Assembly (NCBI GenBank): GCA_028284665.1 | Contig: JANQRG010000006.1 | Location: 1 to 64,000 of the forward strand | Source: Croceivirga sp. | GTDB lineage: Bacteria; Bacteroidota; Bacteroidia; Flavobacteriales; Flavobacteriaceae | Reading direction: 5' to 3' | Length of the DNA: 64,000 bases | Shown here: positions 50,825 to 64,000 of the stretch, piece by piece | Layout: the number at the start of each line of letters is the position of its first letter | Numbering within the stretch: the stretch's first letter is position 1 | The notes under the pieces: model-generated | Database searches by the model: none | Told to the model about the DNA's origin: nothing | The model's input: only the letters and a program-made list of their open reading frames with translations | Position numbers and translations under genes: made by a program

Positions 50825-50989
50825 TTTTACTTACTCTTTTTCACATTGAGTGCTATCGCAGAATGAGTGCTAGAGTCTCTCTTTTTTACGGAGTAACTTT
50901 TGGGGGAAGATCCAGCTTCTAATTTAAAGGATAATGTCTAAAGCTTTTTCACTTTTATCCTTAAAAAAACCGGGGTTTTTCTGCAATTT

Positions 50990-52192
50990 TTAATCGTTTT
51001 TTTGAAACAACGCAATCAACCCAAATACTGGCCCCACTGCTAATACCAAAAAAAGCCATTTGGGCGAAACAACCCATTGTAAATACGTTACTAGTTGGAT
51101 ACTGAAAATGGTAATTGCAAAACCAATACAATTCACTATGGTCAGTGCAGTGCCTTTGATGGTTGCCGGGGCATTTTTGGCTACCAGGGTAGAAAAGAGC
51201 GGGGAGTCGGCAATGACCACCATGCCCCAAAACAGCAAAAAGGTCACAAACCAGCCGGGATAGGGCAGGACAAACATCAGGGGGAAGAGCAGGCAACAGC
51301 TGCCTGACAATGCCAACGCCCCTCCGGCAGTTCGTTTCTCTCCCAATTTTTGCGAAATAAACCCACCTAAGACACAAGCTAACCCGCCAATGGCAATGAC
51401 GGCAAAGGAATGTAGCGCTACCGAAAAGGTTACGCTGGGATGGTACTCTGCATAGGTAACCAGCATTACCGGAACAAAAGCCCATACGGTATACAGTTCC
51501 CACATATGCCCGAAATACCCAAAGGCAGCGGAGCGAAATGTCTTTTCCCGAAATATGGTAAAACAGGCCGTCAGTTGCAGTTGTTGACTCGCCTTACGAT
51601 AAGGGCCATCAGGTACACCGCCGACAATCAGAAATCCCCCTAACACTGCCAGGCTAGATGTTGCAAGTATTACCCCTTTCCATGGCAAAGCGACGGAAAC
51701 GCCTTTGAGTAAATGGGGCAAGGCGGTTCCCAGGACGAGCGCGCCCACCAAAAAACTCAAGGATTTTCCCAAGCCCTTATCAAAATGGTCGGCGGCAATT
51801 TTCATTCCTACCGGGTAGATCCCGGCCAGGAAAAATCCAGTCAAAAAACGGCATACTATAATGGAAGTGAAACTATTCCCCTCCCATAAGATGCCCAGGT
51901 TGCACAAGGCGCCCAACAGTGCACTTACAAGAAACACTTTTGAAGGCGAAAAACGGTCGGTTAGGGTAAAGATGGCAAAGAGCAAGGTGCCCGTAATAAA
52001 ACCTAACTGTACTGCGGAGGTCAAATGTCCAAGGGCGTAAGTGGGCAGATTAAAGGTATGGATAAGGTCTTCCATTACCCCGTTCCCGGCAAACCACAGA
52101 GAGGTACAACAGAATTGGGCGATAACTATACAAGGGAGAATATGCGGGGCGGGTTTTGTCAAAGGATGATGCTTTTTGCTGACGTTCAACAT
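50990..52192 (-). CDS. MFS transporter
   Basis: A 400-residue membrane protein from the ATG at 52192 (MLNVSKKHHPLTKPAPHILP). The longer frame to 52237 overlaps the neighbouring gene too far. Twelve membrane segments are visible. The MFS loop between helices 2 and 3 reads FTLTDRFSPSKVFLVSALLG, and FLTGFFLAGIYPVGMKIAAD matches helix 4 of the family. The substrate cannot be predicted. Its start overlaps the end of the VOC gene by 7 bases, so the three genes 53633-50990 form one operon. Confidence 0.85.
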   Translation of the reverse strand: MLNVSKKHHPLTKPAPHILPCIVIAQFCCTSLWFAGNGVMEDLIHTFNLPTYALGHLTSAVQLGFITGTLLFAIFTLTDRFSPSKVFLVSALLGALCNLGILWEGNSFTSIIVCRFLTGFFLAGIYPVGMKIAADHFDKGLGKSLSFLVGALVLGTALPHLLKGVSVALPWKGVILATSSLAVLGGFLIVGGVPDGPYRKASQQLQLTACFTIFREKTFRSAAFGYFGHMWELYTVWAFVPVMLVTYAEYHPSVTFSVALHSFAVIAIGGLACVLGGFISQKLGEKRTAGGALALSGSCCLLFPLMFVLPYPGWFVTFLLFWGMVVIADSPLFSTLVAKNAPATIKGTALTIVNCIGFAITIFSIQLVTYLQWVVSPKWLFLVLAVGPVFGLIALFQKND

Positions 52193-53229
52193 AGGTCTTG
52201 CCCTACTGGAGTTGCAAATGAAGCGGCCCAAAACCACCCCGGATACAAATAATACAATACACTATACACTCCAAGGAAAGCCCACAACACAAGCACCACC
52301 CAAAACAGCACCGGATGTTGGACTTTTGAAATGGGTTCGAATAAATGGGTCTGACCGGAGCGCAGGTCCATAATCACCCAAAGGGTAAAGAAGATACCCC
52401 AGATCCAGGCCCATCCTGTCACCAGGCTAATGATAATCAATCCCAACCCTATCGAGGCCCTCCATTTGAAAGGCTTCTCGAATCGGGATTTCTTAGGAAA
52501 GATGCTGCTGTCTACTATGGGAACCACATGGAAAAAAGCACCGAAAGGATCTGCCAATGCAGTGAAATGGTTATCCTCAAAAACCAGGGAACCTCCGTTT
52601 TCCAGCACACTTTTTTTAGTGGTGGCGGTGTCTCGCACAGCAAAAAATACTCCCCAGTACTCGTATTTCCCTTTTAGGGTGTTACTTACCTCCCGAACCG
52701 CTCCTATTTGCTGTTGCGAGGAATCCAAAATAAAGCGGCGACCGTTTTGAGCAGGAGCGAACGTCCAGTGAAACAGAGTTTCGTAGAAGGGGCTAATCCT
52801 GGAGAAGTCTGAAATGAACAACTCATTCCACACCAAAGCATTCTTGGTATTTTTAAAGCGACTGTTCAACTGATCTCCCTCGTAGACGGTAAAACCCGCA
52901 CCGAGCGGATCCCGGATCAAGGCAACTTTTCCGATAGGGTTTTCAGTGTCAACCAGTTCAATGATCCCACCTAGGGTTTTGGCTCTTGCTACTGTGTCTT
53001 CTACACTTTCCACACGGATATAGCTCATCCAGAAAGAAGGCATATTCATGTCCTTAAACTTCCTGGGTGTTTCGTAAAGGCCCGAAATTTGCTTGTTGCC
53101 ATAATGTGCCAAATAATAGCGGCCATCTTCCGTATAGTATTCCCAGTTAAAAACAGCGGAATAAAAATTTTTAGCTATGGTGAGCTCGTAGGTTGAGAGA
53201 TCAGCAAAAACAAAGTGGTTTTCCATCAT
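52186..53229 (-). CDS. Two VOC domains fused to membrane helices
   Basis: A 347-residue protein. Two vicinal-oxygen-chelate (glyoxalase-like) domains are at ~1-120 (HFVFADLSTYELTIAKNFYS, IGKVALIRDPLGAGFTVYEG) and ~125-230 (VWNELFISDFSRISPFYETL, NHFTALADPFGAFFHVV). The C-terminal ~100 residues contain about three membrane helices (GLGLIIISLVTGWAWIWGIF, FWVVLVLWAFLGVYSVLYYL). VOC domains tethered to the membrane are uncommon. The ATG overlaps the stop of the upstream gene by four bases (ATGA). Confidence 0.75.
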   Translation of the reverse strand: MMENHFVFADLSTYELTIAKNFYSAVFNWEYYTEDGRYYLAHYGNKQISGLYETPRKFKDMNMPSFWMSYIRVESVEDTVARAKTLGGIIELVDTENPIGKVALIRDPLGAGFTVYEGDQLNSRFKNTKNALVWNELFISDFSRISPFYETLFHWTFAPAQNGRRFILDSSQQQIGAVREVSNTLKGKYEYWGVFFAVRDTATTKKSVLENGGSLVFEDNHFTALADPFGAFFHVVPIVDSSIFPKKSRFEKPFKWRASIGLGLIIISLVTGWAWIWGIFFTLWVIMDLRSGQTHLFEPISKVQHPVLFWVVLVLWAFLGVYSVLYYLYPGWFWAASFATPVGQDLC

Positions 53230-53633
53230 GGTGTTGCTTTTTTCTTCAGAAAGCTACTGCCCAGCGTAATACCAATAACAACTTGAAACACCACACTGGA
53301 TACCCAACTTATCCGGAACCACATCGGGAGGGGTTGCATGGGACCAAGCGCTGCAAAACCGTCAATGACTAAGCCTATTCCCAAAAAAATAAACCATAGC
53401 ACCAGAGCCGTTCTTCGGGCAATTAGTACGGCTACGAATGGTCCCATAATCCCTGCTACAAAAGCCGAGGACAGGGCTCCCACTTGCGGTAAGGGAGCAT
53501 ACGGAAGGTTTTTTGGCCCCCAGGTGATGCCATTGGCTTTCCAGAGTTGGGTAAGCCCAGCCTGTACTAAGAATACAGTGAGAATTCCAGCAAGGATGGC
53601 GACGACCAAACGCCAGGTGGGAGAAATTGTCAT
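53226..53633 (-). CDS. Four-TM membrane protein of unknown function
   Basis: A 135-residue protein with four hydrophobic segments (~8-27, ~50-70, ~75-93, ~108-127) and a Lys-rich tail. No family recognised. It is first in an operon with the VOC-membrane fusion and the MFS transporter, coupled by ATGA overlap. The trio may work together at the membrane. Confidence 0.65.
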   Translation of the reverse strand: MTISPTWRLVVAILAGILTVFLVQAGLTQLWKANGITWGPKNLPYAPLPQVGALSSAFVAGIMGPFVAVLIARRTALVLWFIFLGIGLVIDGFAALGPMQPLPMWFRISWVSSVVFQVVIGITLGSSFLKKKATP

Positions 53634-53825
53634 GGAAACTTTGCTGCGTTTACTTGCAGTGCTTTAAGGTAAATAAAATGGATGGTATTTCAAGGACTTC
53701 AAAAACTGCTTGTCCGTCCTCAATGGAGGAGGTCCAATTTTGATCTTTGGATTCTTGCGTACTCCCTTCGACTCCTCTTAATTAGTACACAAGAATGAAA
53801 GAACACACTATTTTCTTGGGATGTC

Positions 53826-53846
53826 ATTCCGCACCTGTTGCGGAAT
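53826..53846. repeat. REP-like hairpin ATTCCGC-N7-GCGGAAT
   Basis: A perfect 7-bp inverted repeat preceded by GATGTC and followed by CCA, in the gene-free stretch 53634-53917. It has the form of the widespread REP-like unit GTCATTCCGC...GCGGAATC. The same gap holds CTTGTCCGTCCTC...GAGGAGG (about 53722-53746), similar to degenerate copies near 56290 and 63290. Confidence 0.5.
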
Positions 53847-53917
53847 CCATTTTTAAGATAAAAGTATCTGCATTCCTAACTCCTTGTGGTTTAATTTGAA
53901 ATGACTGTTCGGATACA

Positions 53918-55249
53918 CTATTCCTGCGGTAAGGGCTGTAGAAAATGCGTTACGGCATATTCCCCAATCGCTGTCCCCAACCGATGCCCTTCTTCGGAAT
54001 CGTATCGAAAGTGGATACCAAGGTAGACCCGGGACATTGATGCTTCCAATCCCGCTTCCGAAAAACTAGAGAACGAGCGAATAGGGGGTTCCATAGCGAC
54101 CTTTTCTGAAAATGGTCCTGCCTGTTCTACTTCCGGTGTGGACATGACAAAAGTGTACCCATCTCCTGTACCAAGTGTGGTAGCCAAAACTCGCATGGCT
54201 GCTGAGCTGGCCGTTCCGTGGGCGGAGGGATAGGAAGGAAAGGCATAGGTGTGTTGGTGAAGGTTGTTCCACCCCGGATCGGGTTGGGTATCCGGGTTTT
54301 CGTCATGTTCCGCCCAGCGGATCGCCGTATAGGGCCGCCAATGGTTATAGTGAAATTTGTTGTCAAAGACGTTGATATAGGCATCATAGACCGCCATATT
54401 CATCAGTGCAAAAGCACGGGTCGCTTCCCATAGGTTAAGCTGTTCTTTTACCACCAGGTCCCTGGCCAGTCGGTTGTGCGAATTTTCTACAAAGTCCTTC
54501 CACCACATTGCCAGATGTGCCTGGTCTTCCGTCCGGGTAGTACTTTGCCGGGCCCCTACTTCTTTTACCTCATTGAACGCCTGAGCATAGGTGGCGCTGG
54601 GAATCTCGGGTGGAGGTGGAGACCGAAAGTGGTCCTGCGAAGGGAGCATAAAAGGTTGGGCCAAAGCCCAACCCGCTCCAAATACAAAACCTTCCGGGGT
54701 ACCACTATGCTCGTTAAATTCGGCATATACCCCGGGAGCCATGGGATGCCAGGTATATTCCGCTTCCCCGTTCCAGGCGTCGCCTTGCCGTTCGTCGAGG
54801 AGTTTGGCCGCAGCTGCTTCTCCCAACGTCTTCGCCGCCCCAATTTCAGCTTTGGGTAAGGTATCCAGGCAACGTTCCAGGGCTTCGTGCAGTTCCGGTT
54901 TATGATCAGGGTAATGGGTAACAGCTATCGCATAAAGCGCATGGGCAACGGTTGCTACAGGGTGGGCTTCCAAGGATTCGCCATGATACGTATAGTAACT
55001 GTATTGAGGTGCCAGGGTGTTTAACGCGTCATGCGCTGCCAAATGCATCATCGTTGCGGTACGTAGTCCTTTCAAGGTAAGCAGACCGTCTTCAGCAGTT
55101 GCCAGAGCCATCACCTTTTCGTTCCAGGCAAGTAATACCTCGGGGCCGTAGTCTTGCACCCGGAGCGCTTTTTTGCCGCAGTTAATCAGTAAAAGGAACA
55201 GTAGGATGAGGAGCTGGAGTTTTCCATTCGTGATACGAAAGTATTTCAT
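53918..55249 (-). CDS. Vanadium haloperoxidase/PAP2-like lipoprotein
   Basis: A 443-residue lipoprotein (lipobox LINC, Cys23). The C-terminal half contains the vanadate/phosphate pocket shared by vanadium haloperoxidases and PAP2 phosphatases: FHYNHWRPYTAIRWAE (Arg), FPSYPSAHGTASSAAM (Ser, His) and SRVYLGIHFRYDSEEGHRLG (Arg and His). Most bacterial members with this length and domain order are annotated as vanadium-dependent haloperoxidase-like, but halogenating activity cannot be told from phosphatase by sequence. It is divergent from an AraC-type regulator, 146 bases apart. Confidence 0.85.
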   Translation of the reverse strand: MKYFRITNGKLQLLILLFLLLINCGKKALRVQDYGPEVLLAWNEKVMALATAEDGLLTLKGLRTATMMHLAAHDALNTLAPQYSYYTYHGESLEAHPVATVAHALYAIAVTHYPDHKPELHEALERCLDTLPKAEIGAAKTLGEAAAAKLLDERQGDAWNGEAEYTWHPMAPGVYAEFNEHSGTPEGFVFGAGWALAQPFMLPSQDHFRSPPPPEIPSATYAQAFNEVKEVGARQSTTRTEDQAHLAMWWKDFVENSHNRLARDLVVKEQLNLWEATRAFALMNMAVYDAYINVFDNKFHYNHWRPYTAIRWAEHDENPDTQPDPGWNNLHQHTYAFPSYPSAHGTASSAAMRVLATTLGTGDGYTFVMSTPEVEQAGPFSEKVAMEPPIRSFSSFSEAGLEASMSRVYLGIHFRYDSEEGHRLGTAIGEYAVTHFLQPLPQE

Positions 55250-55395
55250 ACTGGAAGTGGTTTAGGTAGCAGTCCGGCAAAAACGCTGATAAGAAGATAG
55301 TTAAATAGTTGACTACTAGTACGGTAAAATGTATAGCTCGCAGTATTTCGTGTTTTTTTGGAAGGAATTGGCGGTTTCCTTAATTTGTAGCAGCT

Positions 55396-56253
55396 ATGAC
55401 AAGAGACATTATCGATATCAACGATTTTACCATCCTGGTGGAGGAAGCAGCATCCGATAGGGTGATTGTTGATTCCTGTTATTTTGATGAGCCCATGATC
55501 GCAGTGGCGTTTTATGGTTCCGGCAATGTGCACCTGTCCATGAATTTTAGGGAGCATAAAATGGCATATGAGCATACCAAAGGGCTTGCACTTTCTTTTT
55601 ATGCTGATGAGACTGTAGAATGTGTGCACACCGTCTCGCCGGATAAACCCTTACAATGTCTTGTGATTGCTACAGCACCCCGAAACCTGGAACTGTTACC
55701 CAATAATGAAGGGGAGCTGTTTACGGAACTGCTGGACCAATTAGTGCGACCCAAGGCCCCTTATGTTGAGGGTCCGCGCTTTTTTATGACGCCTGAGATG
55801 CAGTATATTGTGGATCAGATCTTTTCCAATCAGTATGAAGGGAAAGCCAAGATGATGTTCTTCCGCAGTCAGATCACGGCCTTATTATCCCACTTTTTCT
55901 GGCAATTGTCAACCCTAAAAACAACAGAGATCAAAAGTTCGGAACGGGAAAAACTGTTGCAGGTAAAAGAAATCCTTTCCGAAAACCTGGACACCCCACC
56001 TTCGCTGAACGAACTCTCCCGCCAGATCGGACTTAATACCTTCAAATTGAAAAAGGAGTTTAAAGCATTGTTTGGTGTTCCTGTATTTAAGTATCTGCAA
56101 AATGAGCGTATGATCAGGGCTCATGAATTGATCCGAAGTGAACAGGCTACGGTTCAAGAGGCCGCCTGGCATGTGGGTTATGACAGCCTGAGTTCCTTTT
56201 CCAATGCGTTCACTAAAAAATTTGGCTTCCGTCCCAGTGAGGTTAAAGTGTAA
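55396..56253 (+). CDS. AraC-family transcriptional regulator
   Basis: A 285-residue regulator without membrane segments. The N-terminal ~170 residues form a PchR-like sensing domain. The C-terminal AraC helix-turn-helix pair reads LNELSRQIGLNTFKLKKEFK and AWHVGYDSLSSFSNAFTKKF. The start ATG follows a TTAATTTG box by about ten bases. Neighbours are the haloperoxidase-like gene (divergent) and, beyond the PAL/GIY-YIG insertion, a three-gene operon whose promoter carries AraC-spaced direct repeats (57276-57313), making it a likely target. Confidence 0.87.
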   Translation: MTRDIIDINDFTILVEEAASDRVIVDSCYFDEPMIAVAFYGSGNVHLSMNFREHKMAYEHTKGLALSFYADETVECVHTVSPDKPLQCLVIATAPRNLELLPNNEGELFTELLDQLVRPKAPYVEGPRFFMTPEMQYIVDQIFSNQYEGKAKMMFFRSQITALLSHFFWQLSTLKTTEIKSSEREKLLQVKEILSENLDTPPSLNELSRQIGLNTFKLKKEFKALFGVPVFKYLQNERMIRAHELIRSEQATVQEAAWHVGYDSLSSFSNAFTKKFGFRPSEVKV

Positions 56254-56339
56254 TTCCGAATGGTCTGCCCATCTTGGTAGGCTTGTCCACCTCCGGTAGG
56301 AGAAATCTAATTCATGAAAACCTAACAGTTAGAAGAGTG

Positions 56340-56461
56340 AGATTTCTCACGCTCCTATTGCTCTGCAATCTCCGGTTCGAAATGACTGTATATGGGAAAA
56401 ATCAATTACGGATACTTTTAGTCATTTCGAAATGAGGAGAAGAACGACGATTGAGAAATCT
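56340..56461. repeat. PAL element A (cloverleaf palindrome) upstream of GIY-YIG
   Basis: 122 bp bounded by AGATTTCTCA and TGAGAAATCT (perfect 10-bp outer stem). Inside, TTCGAAATGACT (56376-56387) pairs with AGTCATTTCGAA (56420-56431). A small left hairpin ATTGC-tct-GCAAT sits between outer and central stems. The loop of the central arm is identical to that of element C. It ends 20 bases before the GIY-YIG ATG. Confidence 0.85.
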
Positions 56462-56481
56462 AAAAAAGCTACTTTTAAAGA

Positions 56482-56781
56482 ATGCTATTTCGGTACTTTG
56501 TTTACATCACTACCAATGAAAATAAAACTACACTTTATATTGGGGTGACTAACGACATTCAACGTAGACTCTCCCAACACTACTTCGATAGTCAAAATAC
56601 CAGAAAATCCTTTGCAGGTAGGTATAATTGCTACTATTTATTGTATTACGAGGGTTTTGAAACCGTTGAAGCAGCAATTTATCGGGAGAAGGAATTAAAA
56701 AAATGGAGGAGAGAAAAAAAGGATCGTTTGATTTCTTCCTTAAATCCTAATTGGGAATTCCTGAATAGTGATGTGGTTTAG
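56482..56781 (+). CDS. GIY-YIG nuclease family protein, element-associated
   Basis: A 99-residue single-domain GIY-YIG protein of the UvrC-N-like/YhbQ-like group: FVYITTN (GIY-equivalent strand), TLYIGVTNDIQRRLSQH (YIG and Arg) and the glutamate helix IYREKELKKWRREKKDRLIS. It lies exactly between two PAL elements: A ends 20 bases before the ATG, and the TAG is formed by the first bases of B. A second, broken copy at 62899 and a 3' relic at ~56950 keep the same relation. It probably encodes the endonuclease that moves or maintains these elements. The function is inferred. Confidence 0.85.
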   Translation: MLFRYFVYITTNENKTTLYIGVTNDIQRRLSQHYFDSQNTRKSFAGRYNCYYLLYYEGFETVEAAIYREKELKKWRREKKDRLISSLNPNWEFLNSDVV

Positions 56782-56897
56782 ATTTCTCACGCTCACTGCA
56801 CATTGCAGCTCGGTTCGAAATGACTGTTGGCGGAAAAGTTATAATAGAAACTAATAGTCATTTCGAAATGAGGTGCTTGGCACCGATTGAGAAATCT
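56780..56897. repeat. PAL element B downstream of GIY-YIG
   Basis: 118 bp with the same 10-bp outer stem and the same central TTCGAAATGACT / AGTCATTTCGAA arm, but a different central loop. The left hairpin is CTGCA-cat-TGCAG and the right one GGTGC-ttg-GCACC, each different from A and C but still paired. Its first bases supply the nuclease stop codon. Confidence 0.85.
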
Positions 56898-56934
56898 CAA
56901 CTCTGATTGTTCCCCTCGAGGCTGCATTTGACCT

Positions 56935-57030
56935 CCTTTGGTACAAACTTTATGCAGTAAGGGAAAAAGGATATCCTTGTCAACTACTTTAATCTTGATT
57001 GGGATTTTTTAAGTATCGATGTAATTTAGA
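56935..57030 (+). pseudogene. 3' relic of a second GIY-YIG copy
   Basis: Between elements B and C, about 70 bases align with the last 22 codons of the GIY-YIG gene: a GAAAAAGGAT...CTTGATTGGGATTTTTT...GATGTAATTTAG end replaces the intact gene's lysine-rich helix and NWEFLNSD end. It is frameshifted and its front is gone. The TAG again merges into element C. Confidence 0.6.
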
Positions 57031-57147
57031 TTTCTCACGCTTCTACTGCTTCGCAATATCCGGTTCGAAATGACTGTATATGGGAAAAATCAATTACGGA
57101 TACTTTTAGTCATTTCGAAATGAGTCGGAACGACGATTGAGAAATCT
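57028..57147. repeat. PAL element C
   Basis: 120 bp with both conserved stems. The central arm and its ~35-base loop are identical to element A over more than 60 bases, showing a recent common copy. The right hairpin reads TCG-gaa-CGA. It lies after the nuclease relic, closing a tandem A-gene-B-relic-C array. Confidence 0.85.
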
Positions 57148-57275
57148 CATTGTTATTTTACTTCATAAGATTTTCATGCTCTCTTCACAACTCTCAAGGT
57201 CTGTTCTGTAAGCCTAAGGACGAACAAAACTAGGTTGGGTCCGATATAATAGTCAGATCAGAGAATGATCTCCTT

Positions 57276-57313
57276 CTCCTTTTCGAACAAATCATACTCC
57301 TTTTCAAACAAAT
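57276..57313. promoter_or_regulatory. AraC-type direct-repeat operator (17 bp, 21-bp period)
   Basis: CTCCTTTTCGAACAAAT (57276-57292) and CTCCTTTTCAAACAAAT (57297-57313) differ at one base and start 21 bp apart, the classical spacing of AraC half-sites. The second ends 19 bases before a perfect -7 box (57333), so it overlaps the -33 region as in class II activation. The nearest AraC gene is at 55396. Confidence 0.7.
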
Positions 57314-57332
57314 GTCCGGAAGGTAGCTGCTC

Positions 57333-57340
57333 TAGTTTTG
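57333..57340 (+). promoter_or_regulatory. -7 promoter box of the DUF5367-DUF1772-NmrA operon
   Basis: TAGTTTTG is an exact TAnnTTTG match, 25 bases before the ATG at 57366 and just downstream of the direct repeats. Confidence 0.65.
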
Positions 57341-57365
57341 GAGTGTAATTAAAAAACGAGCAGTC

Positions 57366-57767
57366 ATGAAAACGTTTAGAGCAATTGGAATTGGAGCTGG
57401 TATCTGGGCCCTGGGAGTAAGCGCCTATACGCTCTCCTACTTTGTCCCGGTACTGGACAATCCGGAACAACAGGCCAATATGGTTTTGTTTATCGTAGTA
57501 CTTCCCCTGGTTTGGTTTGGGGCAAAAGGGTACTACAAAAAAGAACAGCATACCCACGGCTATTGGGTGGGGCAGACCTTCTTTTTAACAGCAGCAGCTT
57601 TGGATGCTTTGATCACCGTGCCCCTATTGGTAATCCCTAATGGTGGGAGCCATTACGCCTTCTTTACCGACCCAGGCTTTTGGGTCATTGGGTTAGAATT
57701 TATCGCTACCTCAGTACTGTACTGGTATGCTAAGGTCTGTACGAAAAAACTAAAAAGTACTAACTAA
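57366..57767 (+). CDS. DUF5367-like four-TM protein
   Basis: A 133-residue membrane protein with four hydrophobic segments (IGIGAGIWALGVSAYTLSYF, MVLFIVVLPLVWFGAKGYY, TFFLTAAALDALITVPLLVI, FWVIGLEFIATSVLYWYAKV). Length and the WFGAKGYY segment fit DUF5367. It is first of three genes spaced by 13 and 94 bases, downstream of an AraC-type operator. Confidence 0.65.
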   Translation: MKTFRAIGIGAGIWALGVSAYTLSYFVPVLDNPEQQANMVLFIVVLPLVWFGAKGYYKKEQHTHGYWVGQTFFLTAAALDALITVPLLVIPNGGSHYAFFTDPGFWVIGLEFIATSVLYWYAKVCTKKLKSTN

Positions 57768-57780
57768 AAAATCATGAAAC

Positions 57781-58272
57781 ATGGAAATTACACTGAGCAA
57801 TCTATCACTTTTCGCGACTGTCCTCTTGGTTGGTCTGGTCGCCGGACTATGCTTCACCTGGGGCAACGCCGTTACCCCTGGTATTGGACAATTGGACGAT
57901 CTGAGCTACCTCAGCGCCTTTCAGCAAATGAATCGTAGCATCCTGAATCCCACCTTCTACGGGGTTTTTATGGGCTCGCTTTTGGTAGGCATTGTTGCGG
58001 TCTTTACAAACAAAGGCGTTTCTCCCACCCACTTTTGGATGGTTTTGACCGCTGTGCTGATCTACTTCTTTGGAGTGATCCTCGTAACGGTTTTCGGGAA
58101 CGTGCCCTTGAATGAACTGCTGGACAAAACCGATCTGGCCCAAAGCAGTACGGAGCAATTAAGTGCCTTGCGCAAGAGATTTGAACAGCCCTGGAATCGG
58201 TTTCATACCATACGGGTCGTTACGGGAACCATCGCTTTTGCACTGCTCATCATCGCAAGTAGTAACAAATAG
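57781..58272 (+). CDS. DUF1772 (anthrone-oxygenase-like) membrane protein
   Basis: A 163-residue protein with four membrane helices and the DUF1772 pattern: AGLCFTWGNAVTPGIGQLDD, YLSAFQQMNRSILNPTFYGV and RFEQPWNRFHTIRVVTGTIA. Some members oxidise anthrones or similar aromatics. It is often beside NmrA-type oxidoreductases, as here. Second gene of the AraC-regulated operon. Confidence 0.85.
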   Translation: MEITLSNLSLFATVLLVGLVAGLCFTWGNAVTPGIGQLDDLSYLSAFQQMNRSILNPTFYGVFMGSLLVGIVAVFTNKGVSPTHFWMVLTAVLIYFFGVILVTVFGNVPLNELLDKTDLAQSSTEQLSALRKRFEQPWNRFHTIRVVTGTIAFALLIIASSNK

Positions 58273-58292
58273 AACTGAAACAATAATACTCT

Positions 58293-58330
58293 TCGATCCC
58301 GCCTACCGGCAGGCAGGTGTGCTCGGGGAG
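58293..58330. repeat. REP-like repeat CTACCGGCAGGCAGG
   Basis: The 94-base gap between DUF1772 and NmrA genes holds CCCGCCTACCGGCAGGCAGG followed by TGTGCTCGGGG: the ends CCCG / CGGG and the core GCCTACCGGCAGGC pair. It resembles the small palindromic repeats common between genes in this phylum. Being inside an operon it may shape mRNA stability. Confidence 0.5.
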
Positions 58331-58366
58331 ACACTAAAAACAATAACAATTAAAACAGAAATCATC

Positions 58367-59203
58367 ATGAAAAACAACATTTTAGTATTAGGAGGAAAAG
58401 GAAAAACAGGGCGACGTATCGCCGAAAGATTAACCCACTTAGGCCACAATGTCCGAATCGGTTCAAGAAGTGAAACTCCGGCTTTTGACTGGCATCAACC
58501 TGCAGGCTGGCCAGCGGTGCTGGAAGGGATTGAAAAGATGTATATCACCTATCAACCGGATCTGGCGGTTCCCGGTGCTAAGGAAGCCATTGAAGCTTTA
58601 ACTAAAGTGGCAAAACAGCAGGGGGTACAACAGTTGGTCATTTTGTCCGGGAAAGGGGAAGTAGAAGCTCAGCGTTGTGAGCAAATTGTACTGAATTGTG
58701 GGATAGAAGCCACCGTGGTACGGGCAAGCTGGTTCAGCCAGAATTTTAGCGAGAGCTTTTTCCTTGATCCCATTCAGCAAGGCGTGGTAGCGTTGCCCAA
58801 TGCGGATAGTCCGGCACCTTACGTAGATGCAAATGATATTGCGGAGGTAGTAGTCAAGATACTTTTGAATACAGGCCATAGTGGGAAGATCTATGAGTTG
58901 ACCGGTCCACGTTTACTCACCTTTGAAGATGTCGTAGCCCAGATTGCTAAGGCTTCCGGCCGGGAACTCCAATTTATTCCGATCACGCTTTCCGAATATG
59001 TGAATGCTATGAAAGAAATGCAACTGCCTGAAGATGTGATTTGGCTCATTGAGTACTTGTTTACGCATGTGCTGGACAACCCGGAAAACCAGATCGTCAC
59101 CAATGATGTGGAAAAGGTGTTGGGTCGGCCTCCAATCGACTTTTCAGACTATGTCGCGGAGACCGTAAAAACCGGGATTTGGAATCCGGAAGTGGAAGTG
59201 TAG
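58367..59203 (+). CDS. NmrA-like NAD(P)-binding oxidoreductase
   Basis: A 278-residue protein from the ATG at 58367 (MKNNILVLGGKGKTGRRIAE). The frame open from 58163 overlaps DUF1772 and the repeat and is not coding. The Rossmann motif VLGGKGKTG, then HNVRIGSRSE, WPAVLEGIEKMYITYQPDLA and VVRASWFSQNFSE match NmrA/SDR-a relatives, including quinone- or azo-reductases. Last gene of the operon, with a terminator 26 bases later. The substrate is unknown. Confidence 0.85.
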   Translation: MKNNILVLGGKGKTGRRIAERLTHLGHNVRIGSRSETPAFDWHQPAGWPAVLEGIEKMYITYQPDLAVPGAKEAIEALTKVAKQQGVQQLVILSGKGEVEAQRCEQIVLNCGIEATVVRASWFSQNFSESFFLDPIQQGVVALPNADSPAPYVDANDIAEVVVKILLNTGHSGKIYELTGPRLLTFEDVVAQIAKASGRELQFIPITLSEYVNAMKEMQLPEDVIWLIEYLFTHVLDNPENQIVTNDVEKVLGRPPIDFSDYVAETVKTGIWNPEVEV

Positions 59204-59228
59204 GAAAACTCATCAAATTAGTAGAAAA

Positions 59229-59256
59229 GACAGGTCTTTAAACCTGTCTTTTTTTT
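59229..59256 (+). terminator. Terminator of the AraC-controlled operon
   Basis: Stem GACAGGT / ACCTGTC with a 6-base loop and an eight-T tail, 26 bases after the NmrA stop. Confidence 0.9.
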
Positions 59257-59270
59257 GAAACGAGAAATAC

Positions 59271-59398
59271 TAGCTCCTTCCCTTACTAAAGGGAAGGTGG
59301 CTTACTTCGGAGAAGTAAGACGGATGGGTTGGTTATTTACCACCCTTTCCGTCATCCCTTCGGGATGTCACCTTTCCCTAACCAGGGAAAGGAGCCTT
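59271..59398. repeat. Palindromic element P1 flanking the DUF559 relic
   Basis: About 128 bp made of nested stems: outer GCTCC/GGAGC, CTTCCC/GGGAAG, CTTACTTC-gga-GAAGTAAG, a central GACGG/CCGTC arm, CATCCC-ttc-GGGATG and CTTTCCC/GGGAAAG. The order outer stem, side arms, central arm, side arms resembles the PAL layout but with different sequence. It ends about 25 bases before the relic start. Confidence 0.75.
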
Positions 59399-59423
59399 AG
59401 AATTTTCTGCTATTTTGGGATTG

Positions 59424-59552
59424 GTGAAAAAGCACAATAAATCAGAGTTGAAGGGCTACAGAAAAGCGCTAAGACAAAACCTAACTTCTCCGGAAATCAG
59501 ATGTTTTCTAAGTTCCTTTCTCCGCTCTTTCAATTCCTTTTTGCTAGGTTAG
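59424..59552 (+). pseudogene. DUF559-type endonuclease relic
   Basis: A 42-codon frame from GTG 59424 encodes KKHNKSELKGYRKALRQNLT then SPEIRCFL, matching the start of DUF559 proteins (LR..LT..E..LW), restriction-type very-short-patch-repair-like nucleases. The expected 110-120 residues are cut short by a TAG, and the following DNA shows no continuation. It lies between two palindromes (P1, P2), so it repeats on a different family the arrangement of the GIY-YIG units. Confidence 0.6.
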
Positions 59553-59574
59553 CTTCACTTCAATTAAAATAATC

Positions 59575-59713
59575 AAAGCTCCCCTCTTTAGAAAAGAGGG
59601 GAATGAATTCGGACTGAAAGGAGGAAGAAAGGGGAGATTGAAGAACCAATCCCTCCGGCATCACCTGTCGAGCTGATGCCACCTCCCTTTATCCAAAGGG
59701 AGGAGCTTTTGTT
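59575..59713. repeat. Palindromic element P2 flanking the DUF559 relic
   Basis: About 139 bp bounded by AAAGCTCC / GGAGCTTT. Inner hairpins are CCCCTCTTT-ag-AAAAGAGGGG, GGCATCA / TGATGCC and CCTCCCTTT-atcc-AAAGGGAGG. The outer arm GCTCCCCT recurs near 47090. Confidence 0.75.
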
Positions 59714-59794
59714 TTGAGATACTTCAAATTTAAATTTTCCACACCTAATCCAGTCTGCTCGAAATCATTATTGTGAGGTAATAAACAAACAATA

Positions 59795-59819
59795 AAAGGG
59801 CATCTAAAAGATGCCCTTT
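59795..59819 (-). terminator. Terminator of the 46-residue ORF
   Basis: AAAGGGCATC-tttta-GATGCCCTTT on the minus strand, a perfect 10-bp stem followed by a short T-rich tail. It lies 6 bases past the stop of the small ORF at 59826. Confidence 0.7.
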
Positions 59820-59825
59820 ATTCCA

Positions 59826-59966
59826 TTATCCCTTATACAAATAGTCCATATCCGAACTGGGACAACGGCTTAACGGTGATTTCCACTCGTCATCTTTTTT
59901 GTTTGCCGATGGGATGGTATACCATCCAAAGAACATCGGTCTTTTGTACTGTTGTCTTGTTTTCAT
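59826..59966 (-). CDS. Small protein of unknown function, 46 residues
   Basis: A frame from ATG 59966 to TAA 59826 encodes MKTRQQYKRPMFFGWYTIPS, then ANKKDDEWKSPLSRC and DMDYLYKG. It is hydrophilic, has one Cys, and is followed at once by a clean terminator, which supports a real transcript unit. No family recognised. It sits 53 bases downstream of mddA on the same strand and could also be read from that transcript. Confidence 0.45.
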   Translation of the reverse strand: MKTRQQYKRPMFFGWYTIPSANKKDDEWKSPLSRCPSSDMDYLYKG

Positions 59967-60018
59967 GGTTGAATTGTTTACTTGTTTTTTGATGATGATT
60001 GATAATTTTGTGTTCGTA

Positions 60019-60792
60019 CTATACTTTTTCCTTTACGATCAGCTTTGGATTGCTTCTTTTTCGCCACTTGGTGAACGGAATGAGCATTGGTTTTTTAGCC
60101 TGATAGGCCTTATATGTTTCTCCAAACTCGTTCATGAGGTCCTTTTCTTCCAATAGGGTTCCAATAACCACATAAGCAGTAATGGCAATGGCGAATAGCA
60201 AATGCGTTACTGTCATGGTCGGAGTAGCCCACATACCTAGTAGCATACCAAAATACAGCGGGTGACGTACGTATTTGTAAAATAAGGTCACCCGAAACTG
60301 CAATTGCGTATAGGGTTTGTTCATCAACTCTAAAAAGGTCTGTCGTAGTCCAAACAGATCGAAGTGATTGATCAAAAACGAACTGATGAATAATATCGCC
60401 CAGCCGGCAAAGAACAATCCATACAACAGATAATACAATAGGCTGTTAGGGGTTACTTCCCATAGCAAACCTCCAACAGGTTGCCAGTTGTACACCAGGT
60501 TAAAGAGCAACAGCCCGGAAACCAGAACAAAGGTGCTACGCTCTATTGGCCTTGGAAAATAGCGGGTAAATAGGGCCTTGAACCATTTTCGTGCCATCAC
60601 ACTGTGTTGTACCCCAAAGAGGGAGATCAACAAGAGGTTGTTTGCTACTGCCCATAAAACAGGGAGTTGAGGAGCTCGGTCAATTCCAATACCTGGAATT
60701 AAGTTGCCGACTGAAGCGATCCAAAAAAGGATGGATCCAAATGCGATCAGGTACGCAACTACGGAATACGTAAACATTACAATTTTCTTCAT
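60019..60792 (-). CDS. mddA: Methanethiol S-methyltransferase (MddA-like)
   Basis: A 257-residue membrane protein with about six helices and an isoprenylcysteine-methyltransferase-like C-terminal part (VTLFYKYVRHPLYFGMLLGM, GTLLEEKDLMNEFGETYKAY). The N-terminal FGVQHSVMARKWFK matches MddA, which methylates methanethiol to dimethyl sulfide. The gene also resembles the NnrU family, so the assignment is probable rather than certain. Its promoter region carries a -7 box (60825-60818) and a phased GGTTAC array. Confidence 0.75.
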   Translation of the reverse strand: MKKIVMFTYSVVAYLIAFGSILFWIASVGNLIPGIGIDRAPQLPVLWAVANNLLLISLFGVQHSVMARKWFKALFTRYFPRPIERSTFVLVSGLLLFNLVYNWQPVGGLLWEVTPNSLLYYLLYGLFFAGWAILFISSFLINHFDLFGLRQTFLELMNKPYTQLQFRVTLFYKYVRHPLYFGMLLGMWATPTMTVTHLLFAIAITAYVVIGTLLEEKDLMNEFGETYKAYQAKKPMLIPFTKWRKRSNPKLIVKEKV

Positions 60793-60817
60793 GACGTTTC
60801 GATTTTTAATTCGATGG

Positions 60818-60825
60818 CAAACCTA
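60818..60825 (-). promoter_or_regulatory. -7 promoter box of mddA
   Basis: On the minus strand TAGGTTTG is an exact TAnnTTTG match, 25 bases before the mddA ATG. Confidence 0.6.
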
Positions 60826-60858
60826 GTCACGAAGAAGCCCTTCCTAAGAATAGTAGCT

Positions 60859-60908
60859 GGTTACAAATGGGTTACGCCACCACCACCGAAGGGTTACAAA
60901 TGGGTTAC
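60859..60908. promoter_or_regulatory. Phased GGTTAC operator array upstream of mddA
   Basis: GGTTACAAATGGGTTAC occurs twice (60859-60875 and 60892-60908), giving four GGTTAC hexamers at 60859, 60870, 60892 and 60903. Spacings are 11, 22 and 11 bp, so all lie on one face of the helix. The array is about -47 to -96 from the predicted transcription start, a usual activator position. The 11-bp period fits OmpR/PhoB-type winged-helix regulators, none of which lies in the window. Confidence 0.65.
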
Positions 60909-60963
60909 AAAACAAAGATTATGGTTTTTAAATAATTGTTTATCAGATAGTTGAAAAAAACTA

Positions 60964-62727
60964 TCAAATAGTATGTAAAAATGCCGACAAATCGTCCTCA
61001 GGACTGAGATGTAGCTTTTTTCTGAGCCGGTTTCGGCTCATTTTTACCGAGGCGGGATTGATATTTTGAAGGGTAGCAATCTGTTTTGTATCCAAATTCA
61101 GCTTGATAAAAGAACACAGGCGTACATCGGTTTTGGTCAGTCCCTCAAACTGTTCGTTTAAGCGGGCATAGAAGGAGCTACTCAATTCATCTACCTTTTG
61201 ATAGAAGTCATCACTGTCCTTGTTCACCCAGATCTTGTTCTTGATTTCTTCTTCCAGGAGTTCCAATTCTTTTTGGCGTTTACGCCCCGTAGCCGCTTTT
61301 AACGATTCCAGGCGTTCCGCAAGAGATTCCGCCCATTCCTGGTTATTGGAAATGTTGACGGCCATGGTGGTCAAATCCTTTGTTTTAAATTCAATTTCGG
61401 AATTCAGCAGCTGGTTCTCCACCTTTTTCAACTTTAAGTTCTGCCGGTGTTTGTAGTACAAGAAGGTCAAGAAGGCGATCACTAACAAACTCACGATCAA
61501 CAATACATAAAAGCGGGTGTTTTGTTTGTTTAATTGTCGTTCGTAGGCTACCTGTTGTGCCGTTTGTAGTTTGTGAAATTTGACACTGTCCGCCAGTTGT
61601 TTTTTTTCGAAGGCATAGTTCATTTCGGCACGAGTGATCTCTTCGGTACGTTCTACGTTGAACAAGGTATCCTTTAATTGCGCATAACGTTCGTAGTATT
61701 CCAATGCGGTCCTGGTGTTTCCAAGATTTTTGTATGCCTCGCTCAAACAAAAACAGGCCTCCTGTTGAAGAATGCTATGTCCCGAGGCCATAGACATTTC
61801 TTGTCCCCTGAGGCAATCATCCCTGGCCTTGGTCCACTGGCCCAGTCGCAAATAAGTACCTCCACGATAGACCAGGGTAGAGGCAAGTCCACCTTCATCG
61901 TTGATTTTGGTTTTTAAAGCTACAGCTTTGTCATGCAATTCCAGGGCTTTGTCAAAGTTGTTGATTTTGGTGTACTCGACCCCCAAATTGGAATACCCCC
62001 TGGCTTCGGAAATAGGGTCGTTAACTTCCTTGGAAAGCCGAACACTTTCATTAAAACTGGCAATGGCGAGGTCATGATCTTTTTTGCTGGAATGGATAAG
62101 GCCAATATTGTTGTGCACCAGGGGTAAACTTTCCGTAAGCCCCATTTGCTCTTTTATAGCTAAGCTCTTTTGGTAATATTCTAAAGAGGTGTCAAAATTC
62201 TTCAGATCGTTGTGGATGTTTCCCAAATTGTTCAGCGCTCTTGAAATAACGGGCTCGGCCCCTATTTTTTCGGCAAGCTTCAGGGACTTTAAAATGTATT
62301 CCTGGGCCTGGGGATAATTCCCCATTTCATAGAATACTGTGCCTATATTTCCCAATATGATGGCAATTCCGTGTTCGTCACCCAGTTCTTGAACCAGTTC
62401 ATAATTTTTCAAAAAGTATTCCCGGGCCTGGTAAAATTGTCCTTGCTGGGCGTGGGTAATGCCAATCCATTTAATGGCGTCTGCTTTCCATGCTTTGTTT
62501 CCTGTAGTTTGAGAAAACGCTAATAGTTGCTTCCCAATAGTTCGGGAACTATCCGCACTAAACCGCATGTTAAAACGGGCCAGGGCCAGACCTGCTTCAA
62601 AACGGACGGAGTCGGGTGCATTGGTATTTTTAAATCGAAGCAGCAAGCTATCCTGAATAGTGGTCTGTCCTTGCAGATAGCAAATAGCAAAGGACCATAG
62701 CACTGCTAATAGGGAATACTTCTTCAA
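60964..62727 (-). CDS. Secreted-domain TPR sensor with LuxR-like HTH
   Basis: About 587 residues from a TTG start at 62727 (KKYSLLAVLWSFAICYLQGQ, a signal peptide). The ATG at 62802 would prefix a charged stretch running into the adjacent repeat. Residues ~60-370 hold about seven TPR units (ALNNLGNIHNDLKNFDTSLE, ARGYSNLGVEYTKINNFDKA). A membrane helix follows at ~400-420, then a coiled coil and a C-terminal helix-turn-helix (LCSFIKLNLDTKQIATLQNI, NPASVKMSRNRLRKKL). TPR-TM-HTH proteins of this kind are membrane-bound regulators in Bacteroidota. A TATATTTA box lies 15-20 bases upstream of the TTG. Confidence 0.83.
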   Translation of the reverse strand: MKKYSLLAVLWSFAICYLQGQTTIQDSLLLRFKNTNAPDSVRFEAGLALARFNMRFSADSSRTIGKQLLAFSQTTGNKAWKADAIKWIGITHAQQGQFYQAREYFLKNYELVQELGDEHGIAIILGNIGTVFYEMGNYPQAQEYILKSLKLAEKIGAEPVISRALNNLGNIHNDLKNFDTSLEYYQKSLAIKEQMGLTESLPLVHNNIGLIHSSKKDHDLAIASFNESVRLSKEVNDPISEARGYSNLGVEYTKINNFDKALELHDKAVALKTKINDEGGLASTLVYRGGTYLRLGQWTKARDDCLRGQEMSMASGHSILQQEACFCLSEAYKNLGNTRTALEYYERYAQLKDTLFNVERTEEITRAEMNYAFEKKQLADSVKFHKLQTAQQVAYERQLNKQNTRFYVLLIVSLLVIAFLTFLYYKHRQNLKLKKVENQLLNSEIEFKTKDLTTMAVNISNNQEWAESLAERLESLKAATGRKRQKELELLEEEIKNKIWVNKDSDDFYQKVDELSSSFYARLNEQFEGLTKTDVRLCSFIKLNLDTKQIATLQNINPASVKMSRNRLRKKLHLSPEDDLSAFLHTI

Positions 62728-62804
62728 GATTGGTTGATTTTCAACTAAATATAAGGAATCTGGGTTGCAAAACGAGGGTTCTATCACTTTTCTGAATACC
62801 ATCG

Positions 62805-62878
62805 GAAATGACTTTAAAGGATCATAGTCATTTCGACATGAGGTATCCCGATGTTATTGGGAAACGATTGAGAAATCT
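62805..62878. repeat. PAL element D, right half only
   Basis: GAAATGACT (62805-62813) and AGTCATTTC (62826-62834) form a shortened central arm. TCCCGAT-gtt-ATTGGGA makes the right hairpin, and TGAGAAATCT ends the element 20 bases before the GIY-YIG pseudogene. The left outer strand is missing. Confidence 0.75.
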
Positions 62879-62898
62879 AAAAAAAGTACTTTTAGCAT

Positions 62899-63198
62899 AT
62901 GTTGCTAAGCTACTTCGTTTACATTGTTACTAATCAGAAGAAAACTACCCTTTACATTGGAGTGACCAATGACATTCAACGCCGCCTTTCCCAATAGTAC
63001 TTTGACAGTCAAAATGCAAGAAAATCCTTTGCAGGTAAGTACAATTGCTATCATTTGGTGTACTACCGAGGTTTTGGGTCTATAGAAGAAGCCATTGATA
63101 GGGAAAAAGAGATGAAAAAATGGCGAAGGGAGAAAAAGAATCGCTTGATTACTTCCTTTAACCCAAACTGGGATTTTTTAAATAGTGAAGTGATATAG
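62899..63198 (+). pseudogene. GIY-YIG nuclease copy with in-frame TAG
   Basis: A full-length 100-codon copy of the gene at 56482 (FVYIVTNQKKTTLYIGVTND, then NWDFLNSEVI), interrupted by TAG at codon 33 (62995-62997), where the intact copy has a His codon. No frameshift is present, so the inactivation is recent or depends on one codon. Flanks carry half PAL elements D and E, and the final TAG again falls on the first bases of the right element. Confidence 0.8.
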
Positions 63199-63267
63199 AT
63201 TTCTCACACTCTCCCGATAGTTATCGGGATCGGTTCGAAATGACTACTGCCGTTATTTTAGTCATTT
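63197..63267. repeat. PAL element E, left half only
   Basis: AGATTTCTCA begins at the pseudogene stop. The left hairpin is CCCGATA-gt-TATCGGG, then CGGTTCGAAATGACT, ending in AGTCATTTT where the right half should start. D and E are complementary halves of one element. Confidence 0.75.
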
Positions 63268-63406
63268 TAAAGAAGCAAAGGAACTGCCTGTCCTCCTCGA
63301 GTGGGGGAAATCTCGTCTACGTTGTTAAGCCCGAAGTTGTACCTGTCCGCCTTTGGCGGAAACTTTGTGTAGCGAGTTTAGCCAGCCGGTAGTTGCCGGG
63401 GTATAC
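63268..63406. repeat. Degenerate repeat debris
   Basis: A 139-base stretch without a gene. CTGTCCGCCTTTGGCGGAAA followed by CTTTGTGTAG resembles the segment GACCTCCTTTGG...AACTTTATGCAG near 56930 that also borders a GIY-YIG relic, and CTGTCCTCC...GGGGGAAATCT (about 63287-63313) resembles 56286-56308. These look like worn copies of a neighbouring repeat family. Confidence 0.4.
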
Positions 63407-63787
63407 TCAACCCATCGCTTCTCTCTTTTCCTTTAGCATAATCCTGCATTCCTCAAAGTCGATTTCAGGGTAGGTGTGGTGTGCCCAATCGCTCAATTGT
63501 TTTAAAATGGGAAGCAGTCCGCTTGCTTTTTCAGTCAACGAATACTCTACCCGTGGTGGGGTTTCTGCAAACGATTGTCGCCTAAGCAGTCCGTCGCTTT
63601 CCAATTCTTTAAGTTGGTTGGTTAAGACTTTCCTGGAAATGGTGGGGAGCAAGGCGTTGAGTTTTCCAAAGCGTAATGCACCATTAGATAATAGGTAAAT
63701 AATTATGGGCTTCCATTTATTGCCGATAATATTCATGGTATGCACAAGCGTACAGGAATTGGGGTTGTCTATATATTTCCGTGCCAT
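63407..63787 (-). CDS. HxlR-family transcriptional regulator
   Basis: A 126-residue winged-helix regulator: conserved Cys12 in the N-terminal NPNSCTLVHTMNIIGNKWKP, then LRFGKLNALLPTISRKVLTN, LKELESDGLLRRQSF and a C-terminal helix (LKQLSDWAHHTY). The conserved cysteine allows thiol-based sensing of quinones or aldehydes, as in HxlR/HypR/QorR. It is divergent from a flavodoxin-fold oxidoreductase gene (105-base gap), the usual target of such regulators. Confidence 0.92.
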   Translation of the reverse strand: MARKYIDNPNSCTLVHTMNIIGNKWKPIIIYLLSNGALRFGKLNALLPTISRKVLTNQLKELESDGLLRRQSFAETPPRVEYSLTEKASGLLPILKQLSDWAHHTYPEIDFEECRIMLKEKREAMG

Positions 63788-63892
63788 TAGTTACTTTTTA
63801 GATACCACATTTTCACAAAGCGGCCGAACTAAAAGTCTCTTTTATAAACTATTATTAGTTCCTTTACGAAACAAATTAAAACAAATTTTGTA

Positions 63893-64000
63893 ATGCCGAA
63901 TGTATTTATACTCAATGGCCATCAGAAATATCCTTTTTCTGCAGGAAGATTGAATGCTACTTTAACGGAAAAGGCTGGTAAATTCTTCACTGGAAATGGC
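63893..64000 (+). CDS. Flavodoxin-fold NAD(P)H oxidoreductase (partial)
   Basis: The first 36 residues are in the window: [20 protein letters not shown], then [12 protein letters not shown]. The NGH-x-SxG-x-LN pattern matches the FMN-binding start of MdaB/KefF-type NAD(P)H-quinone reductases. It continues past the window edge. It is divergent from HxlR, which probably represses it until oxidants or quinones appear. Confidence 0.75.

Follow-up and report, generated by a model that had tools for sequence, protein, structure and literature searches.

In a 64,000-nucleotide stretch of the genome of Croceivirga sp. (GenBank assembly GCA_028284665.1, contig JANQRG010000006.1, positions 1 to 64,000; hereafter the window), a gene for a small GIY-YIG protein lies between two palindromes, A and B, and is followed by a third, C. 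Each palindrome is a dimer of a smaller unit that resembles the repetitive extragenic palindromic (REP) sequences of the CGTC type: it has a GTC head, its stem begins with AT and its tail measures 3 nt. It is likely that the GIY-YIG protein is the cognate nuclease of this CGTC-like REP hairpin, probably single-strand-specific like the Ssn nuclease of Neisseria, and that the gene and its hairpins form one module. A sequence-only reading of the window had already taken gene and palindromes for one module in which the nuclease recognises the palindrome; flank statistics, co-specificity and co-occurrence strongly support this, while cutting and mobility are what we infer beyond it.

Repeat units beside GIY-YIG genes across bacteria

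A search for the family gave 148 matches in 76 genomes, from which 3 loci of the own genome, 29 and 40 further loci and 20 regions from the weak end of the matches were examined, plus five genes or fragments within those loci. The first set, drawn from the genus and family, comprises 99 genes in 94 loci (25 + 29 + 40), and the second, chosen by protein sequence, comprises 97 genes from the best 80 of 572 confirmed candidates in named genomes and 13 of 26 plasmid-collection records. A unit occurs within 150 bp upstream of 56 of 99 genes and downstream of 56 of 98 in the first set, and in the second at 64 of 97 and 68 of 95, respectively. About a kilobase away, the frequency is 1-6% in both sets (1-4 of 92-99 at 900-1350 bp in the first; 2-5 of 84-91 at 900-1650 bp in the second). 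Permuted or altered heads are found within 200 bp of 0-6 of 98-99 genes in the first set, and at 0-2 of 95-97 in the second. Flanking by chance is ruled out by these altered-head and distal-window controls. At 150-600 bp the frequency in the first set is still raised (8-21 of 95-99), as expected for repeat arrays. Intergenic gaps adjacent to the genes contain a unit in 223 of 294 cases, versus 29 of 146 for the other gaps of the same loci (Fisher test, 9e-30).

The weak-end control consists of 20 genes, 18 of which belong to other GIY-YIG subfamilies as judged by eye from the translations, and none of these 18 genes, taken from the same genomes, has a unit within 150 bp. The two remaining genes are in-family, one with units on both sides and one without. 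A weak-end region (L241; L and G numbers are our handles for loci and genomes) yielded no gene and another (L240) two. The two genes of L240 (G124:C23) stand in tandem, encode nearly identical 82-residue GIY-YIG proteins of another subfamily and are without flanking units. By record label, the unit-bearing loci belong to alpha-, beta-, gamma- and deltaproteobacteria, Nitrospirae, Omnitrophota and Patescibacteria, and further ones to Ignavibacteria, Anaerolineae, Dehalococcoidia, a Planktothrix plasmid and Neisseria gonorrhoeae. By these counts, the pairing of nuclease and repeat is general and not limited to the window. The nearest unit usually points its tail toward the gene rather than away from it, both upstream (98 vs 29) and downstream (95 vs 34). 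Among the 95 minus-strand downstream units, 43 lie at -3 to +3 of the stop codon and 6 overlap it as TAG/CTA. The finding that would have spoken against a module, a gene standing without flanking repeats, is not seen in the close subfamily (61-100% identity), where 18 of 18 genes have at least one unit within 160 bp.

The type of hairpin varies with the type of nuclease. For this comparison 146 genes with a unit within 160 bp were used, 50 of 196 being dropped for want of such a unit or for a length outside 70-140 residues. Protein identity and hairpin distance are correlated (Mantel rho -0.47, reached in 0 of 999 permutations). A poorly resolved protein tree (102 columns, with 76 of its 143 inner branches open) requires 47 changes of hairpin class, compared with a mean of 96.7 and a minimum of 90 after shuffling. 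The same class is found upstream and downstream of 73 of 104 genes (shuffled mean 13.6). In the only test that controls for host ancestry, the hairpin beside a gene was compared with that of a homologue elsewhere (at least 55% identity) and that of a paralogue in the same genome (less than 60%); it is nearer to the homologue's in 36 cases, with 2 ties and 0 cases against. Among pairs without a related neighbour gene, the class is shared (at most 1 of 8 letters different) by 10 of 11 at 85% identity or more, 432 of 466 at 70-85% and 1030 of 1896 at 55-70%. The repeat type thus tracks protein lineage rather than genome, and each nuclease branch tends to stand beside its own version of the repeat, such as GTCATTCCTGCG... 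in another class than that of the window. This points to recognition of the hairpin by its enzyme. To account for the co-specificity, the nuclease must either recognise the hairpin or have descended together with it.

Presence of repeat and gene also agrees from genome to genome. The strict unit of the window, called TTTCG (GTCATTTCGA-N(4-34)-GAGAAATC), has 22 copies in the genome, of which the window holds 8, and is present in 41 of 149 family genomes, in which the reversed control pattern has a single match (1/149). It is found in 9 of 10 genomes with a close-subfamily gene versus 32 of 139 others (p = 3.6e-5), and the TCCTGCG repeat in 12 of 14 genomes with a d2 gene versus 21 of 135 others (p = 1.5e-7). 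The crossed presence/absence tests, in which each repeat is set against the other gene, are not significant (p = 0.23, 0.061). Repeats can also survive the decay of the gene: G016 has 11 TCCTGCG units, and its sole gene match at E<=1e-9 holds six stops. The 32 of 139 genomes with at least one TTTCG unit are of the kind that the sequence-only reading named as refuting the module, namely genomes with the repeat and without this gene subfamily; the repeat therefore does not need the gene to persist.

The nuclease gene and its palindromes in the window

The intact gene (Table 1) is an open frame of 99 codons starting 20 bases past palindrome A, just as described in the sequence-only reading, and its product contains a GIY-YIG domain (Pfam PF01541, E 2e-16). 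The AlphaFold model of the product has a mean pLDDT (predicted local distance difference test score) of 92.7. Across 55 sequences, Y8, Y19, R29 and H33 are invariant and E69 is conserved in at least 90%; with PF01541 and these residues, the product is a small GIY-YIG protein with its catalytic residues intact, as expected of a member of the Ssn family. PADLOC gave weak partial matches only. The stop codon TAG (56779-56781) is the exact reverse complement of the 3-nt repeat tail CTA, and because of this it is common to gene and repeat; it does overlap B, as a T plus the first two bases of B rather than as B's first bases throughout. Three copies of the gene had been counted in the window, of which only this one is intact, the others being a 3' remnant and a pseudogene, while the TAG junction is kept in all three.

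Table 1. Positions of the palindromes, their repeat units and the nuclease gene copies within the window
Feature	Position	Strand	Remark
Palindrome A	56340..56461		dimer of two REP units, GTC heads face to face
REP unit of A, left	56341..56386	-	unit scan
REP unit of A, right	56421..56460	+	unit scan; tail directed at gene start
Intact GIY-YIG nuclease gene	56482..56781	+	99 codons; stop TAG overlaps tail of repeat in B
Palindrome B	56780..56897		dimer of REP units, heads face to face
REP unit of B, left	56781..56824	-	CTA tail reads, on the other strand, as the TAG stop of the gene (56779-56781)
REP unit of B, right	56857..56896	+	unit scan
3' remnant of second gene copy	56987..57029	+	about 43 bp, before palindrome C; ends in same TAG junction (repeat family D3)
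Palindrome C	57028..57147		dimer of REP units, heads face to face; central loop same as A's
REP unit of C, left	57029..57074	-	unit scan
REP unit of C, right	57109..57146	+	unit scan
REP unit 5' of third gene copy	62827..62877	+	without intact partner unit
Third gene copy, pseudogene	62899..63198	+	77% identical; in-frame TAG at codon 33
REP unit 3' of third gene copy	63198..63244	-	TAG stop shared with gene copy

A and B indeed have an identical 10-bp outer stem (AGATTTCTCA/TGAGAAATCT) and an identical 12-bp arm (TTCGAAATGACT/AGTCATTTCGAA). As single-stranded DNA, the palindromes fold much better than their dinucleotide shuffles (z of -5.0 for A, -8.1 for B and -4.3 for C), none of 200 shuffles being as good. 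A genome-wide search for outer-stem units, as once recommended, finds A, B and C: in the 4.59-Mb genome, exact outer stems at a spacing of 80-110 bp are confined to these 3 places, every one within the window; the reversed control of the outer-stem pattern has 0 matches in the same 4.59 Mb. The view of the palindrome as a single element was rejected, as the unit scan resolves it into a dimer of the smaller unit that is found elsewhere in the genome as well. What had been called a cloverleaf palindrome is thus a foldable palindrome, composed of two copies of a smaller repeat unit in the layout tail-stem-head/head-stem-tail (...GAAATGAC-loop-GTCATTTCGA...GAGAAATCT). A and C have the same central loop over 32 bp, although the outer parts of C resemble the orthologous B of G006, as would be seen if units exchange sequence.

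All 8 units of the window read GTCATTTC...GAAATC, that is, a GTC head followed by A-T and T-A as the first two stem pairs, and the base before GTC is A in 8 of 8, in place of the published C (or T). Of the 347 distinct units that lie near the genes across all loci, 192 have T at this place, 90 have C, 49 have A and 16 have G. In the window units, a G.A mismatch follows the stem of 5 bp, the arms are long and variable, the span is 38-51 nt and the tail is CTA or CTC. In the same 347 units, G.A stands at position 6 in 52 of the 60 whose stem triplet is TTC, in all 9 of the GTC units and in 8 of the 9 TAC units. The mismatch is frequent in the TTC, GTC, TAC and TGT classes, and position 6 is mostly paired in the TCC and CCC classes. 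Paired and G.A position 6 are two architectures in one repeat superfamily. Many units of relatives fit the published stem of 8-9 bp, loop of 4-5 nt and CCA tail, e.g. GTCATTCCCGCGAAAGCGGGAATCCA. GTC heads face each other in A, B and C, and tails face each other in the pairs at G000:C35, C30 and C22, in G137 and in Azospirillum. At L212 (G046) and L213 (G153), units form arrays of two alternating stem classes (TTC/ATC and TTC/CAT, respectively). In the 5 kb fetched around each of these arrays, no GIY-YIG match was found at E<=10.

Upstream of the locus, an AraC-type regulator is encoded at 55396-56253. A direct repeat TCCTTCTCCTTTTCGAACAAA / TCATACTCCTTTTCAAACAAA is found at 57271-57312 (D6), 5' of the gene at 57366, and a similar pair is readable in eight other AraC neighbourhoods. 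The neighbouring AraC-type regulator may bind at this direct repeat.

Possible movement and mechanism, and alternative explanations

Comparison of strains at matching sites, proposed as a check by the sequence-only reading, reveals several relatives without the block at the same site. Among 11 genus genomes searched, the block next to the AraC gene is present in the own genome and G006 only; seven other genus genomes keep the AraC gene and, as judged by eye, the same downstream neighbour (the AraC of G008 is 91% identical). The unit pair at G000:C35:214597-214684 is absent in G009, where its flanks (72-75% identical) are 20 bp apart. In Azospirillum lipoferum 4B (L179, 1861-2477), the gene and two unit pairs occupy 617 bp of the suf operon, between sufB and sufC, a spacer of just 87-129 bp in A. 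oryzae, A. ramasamyi and strain B510 (flanks 93.7-94.7%). Presence and absence are also seen in Shinella. A Rhizobium locus (L189), used as a query against 134 records, matched only itself at 80% cover or more, and a Planktothrix locus (L181) gave two partly similar records. Genes of the same class occur in different neighbourhoods, and close relatives are unlike one another at the AraC and suf sites; to account for both, gene and repeats need to have moved to some extent.

In such a module, the nuclease gene would stand between hairpins that are targets of its product, with further copies of the hairpin elsewhere in the genome. The nuclease would bind the folded hairpin in single-stranded DNA, either on the lagging strand or in DNA being taken up, and nick it at or beside the GTC head, which is unpaired. 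Where two units are cut as a pair, a segment might be released or copied; repair or recombination at the cuts might then homogenise the repeats or spread them as solo units, sometimes carrying the gene along. As for the purpose, the sequences would fit self-spread as well as control of DNA uptake.

Several observations weigh against this picture. In the first set, which includes the close genes, 34 of 98 have no unit within 150 bp on either side, and flanks are missing more often in distant family members than in the close subfamily. TTTCG counts are slightly raised in d2-gene genomes (one-sided rank test, p = 0.025). G046 and G106 have 13 TTTCG and 7 TCCTGCG units, respectively, without a gene at E<=1e-9, and G138, G137 and G141 have 66, 36 and 22 TTTCG units with gene relatives of only 50-54% identity or weaker. 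Conversely, G144 has a close gene and 0 strict TTTCG units, its flanks carrying a variant. The comparison of identity with hairpin distance, that of paralogues and that of non-syntenic pairs reuse genes and are not independent. Junctions at the presence/absence sites are unclean, no clean junction or target duplication having been found at the Azospirillum and Shinella sites, so that any chemistry of excision or insertion is putative.

A non-mobile host system, in which the nuclease cuts incoming or exposed single-stranded DNA at the repeats and thereby controls uptake or recombination, being inherited with occasional gene transfer, is a real possibility that we would stop short of calling probable. 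It overlaps with the module reading, sharing its recognition part and differing in purpose. Ssn and its repeat reportedly modulate natural transformation in Neisseria, each of the 76 genomes with any match has one to eight of them, and decayed gene copies stand next to surviving repeats, all of which would fit such a system; the differing neighbourhoods of same-class genes and the variation of the AraC and suf sites between close relatives argue against its being non-mobile. It is improbable that the gene is a passive passenger between two CGTC REPs moved by something else, e.g. the REP-associated tyrosine transposases (RAYTs). Persistence of the repeats without the gene would agree with a passenger, as would the tie of GTAG REPs to RAYTs stated in the relevant passages of the 2013 survey (PMC3733652), but a passenger does not explain the nuclease-hairpin co-specificity of 36:2:0, and those passages report no transposase with CGTC REPs (PMC3733652), RAYT genes not having been searched in the present genomes. 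Ordinary transcription terminators or mRNA 3'-end hairpins that adjoin a small gene by chance are a very improbable account. REPs in general adjoin gene 3' ends, as the same survey notes (PMC3733652), and the 43 of 95 minus-strand downstream units at the stop codon look like such an arrangement; however, units are equally common upstream and downstream, far rarer in other gaps of the same loci and absent from the 18 genes of other GIY-YIG subfamilies, and their stem sequence tracks nuclease lineage even at non-syntenic sites, which terminators need not do. Hardly credible, finally, is a group I intron or a free-standing homing endonuclease with a palindromic target by chance, for which the GIY-YIG fold and weak matches to homing-endonuclease models (NCBIfam below cut-off; PHROGs) speak, but against which stand the dispersed, class-specific repeats, an Rfam scan of positions 50000-64000 of the window, in which none of the five matches at E<=1 reached its gathering score or belonged to an intron family, and a phage collection with zero matches to the window protein at E<=1e-5.

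Comparison with known repeat and nuclease systems

The passages of a 2013 survey that treat CGTC REPs describe a CGTC or TGTC (also CCTC) head, a stem of 8-9 bp starting with AT, a loop of 4-5 nt and a CCA tail (Di Nocera 2013, PMC3733652). According to them, these REPs are dispersed, are often dimers, mostly HH, and are known from alpha-proteobacteria, Bacteroidetes and Neisseria among others (PMC3733652). The window units share with the repeats so described the GTC head, the AT-starting stem, the 3-nt tail, the dispersal and the dimers. They differ in the A before GTC, the 5-bp stem with G.A, the long variable middle and the tails CTA/CTC. By this build, the window repeats are a variant of CGTC-type REPs. 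In the same passages, CGTC REPs 'apparently lack a dedicated transposase', and dRS3 of Neisseria, RPE-4/6 of Rickettsia, rhizobial repeats and others appear without an assigned enzyme (PMC3733652), whereas a nuclease partner is proposed here. The open-licence literature, judged by titles and abstract starts, gave no link between GIY-YIG proteins and REPs, an absence that carries little weight.

The comparison with RAYT/REP systems made in the sequence-only reading is apt, while enzyme fold and repeat class differ. As in a REPtron or REPIN, a nuclease gene is framed by repeats thought to be processed by its product, and further repeats are dispersed; the RAYT is an HUH tyrosine transposase and its repeats have a GTAG head, whereas a GIY-YIG protein and a GTC head are found here. 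In relation to the GIY-YIG domains of Slx1, UPF0213 (YhbQ-like), UvrC-N and I-TevI, the 18 other single-domain subfamily genes are set apart by having no unit within 150 bp. It is tentatively suggested that the partners so far missing for CGTC REPs, across the superfamily as a whole, might be GIY-YIG/Ssn nucleases. The two would then make up a REP-mobilising system that evolved independently of RAYT/GTAG and is the second of its sort, in which a single-strand-specific nuclease would cut its own hairpin and move itself and solo repeats, and in which orthogonal nuclease-hairpin classes can share one genome. The comparison offers a testable enzyme partner for CGTC REPs across many bacterial groups, in which hairpin and nuclease change together even among paralogues of one genome. 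If the nuclease does move the repeats, the system would resemble transposition while having no known transposase. Otherwise, the family would be a large natural set of hairpin-specific nucleases with differing targets, useful as tools for single-stranded DNA, and would give a hint of the way in which DNA uptake is shaped by repeats.

The closest known system is Ssn, a GIY-YIG family reportedly described from Neisseria in Nature Communications in 2025, which is said to cut single-stranded DNA at a repeat of which Neisseria has hundreds of copies. The family reportedly has thousands of homologues with their own sequences, besides its role in natural transformation. The statement that no system of this kind had been characterised is therefore probably wrong, since Ssn, as reported, is such a system. 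A homologue from N. gonorrhoeae (L180), which was found by protein search and is presumably Ssn itself, is 41% identical to the window protein when aligned and is adjoined by CGTC-type units; the window protein very probably belongs to the same GIY-YIG family. As far as known, the tie to CGTC REPs, the orthogonality within a genome, the variant hairpin and the presence or absence of the block are added here, part of which the Ssn work may hold. Like Ssn, the window system has a small GIY-YIG protein and a short multi-copy repeat (22 strict units, 8 of them around the gene copies), which is presumably its cognate. Unlike that of Ssn, the repeat of the window is a longer dimer whose stem has 5 bp and a G.A mismatch and whose arms vary. 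Further differences are that the tail of the repeat supplies the stop codon and that the gene-plus-repeat block is seen to be present or absent as a whole.
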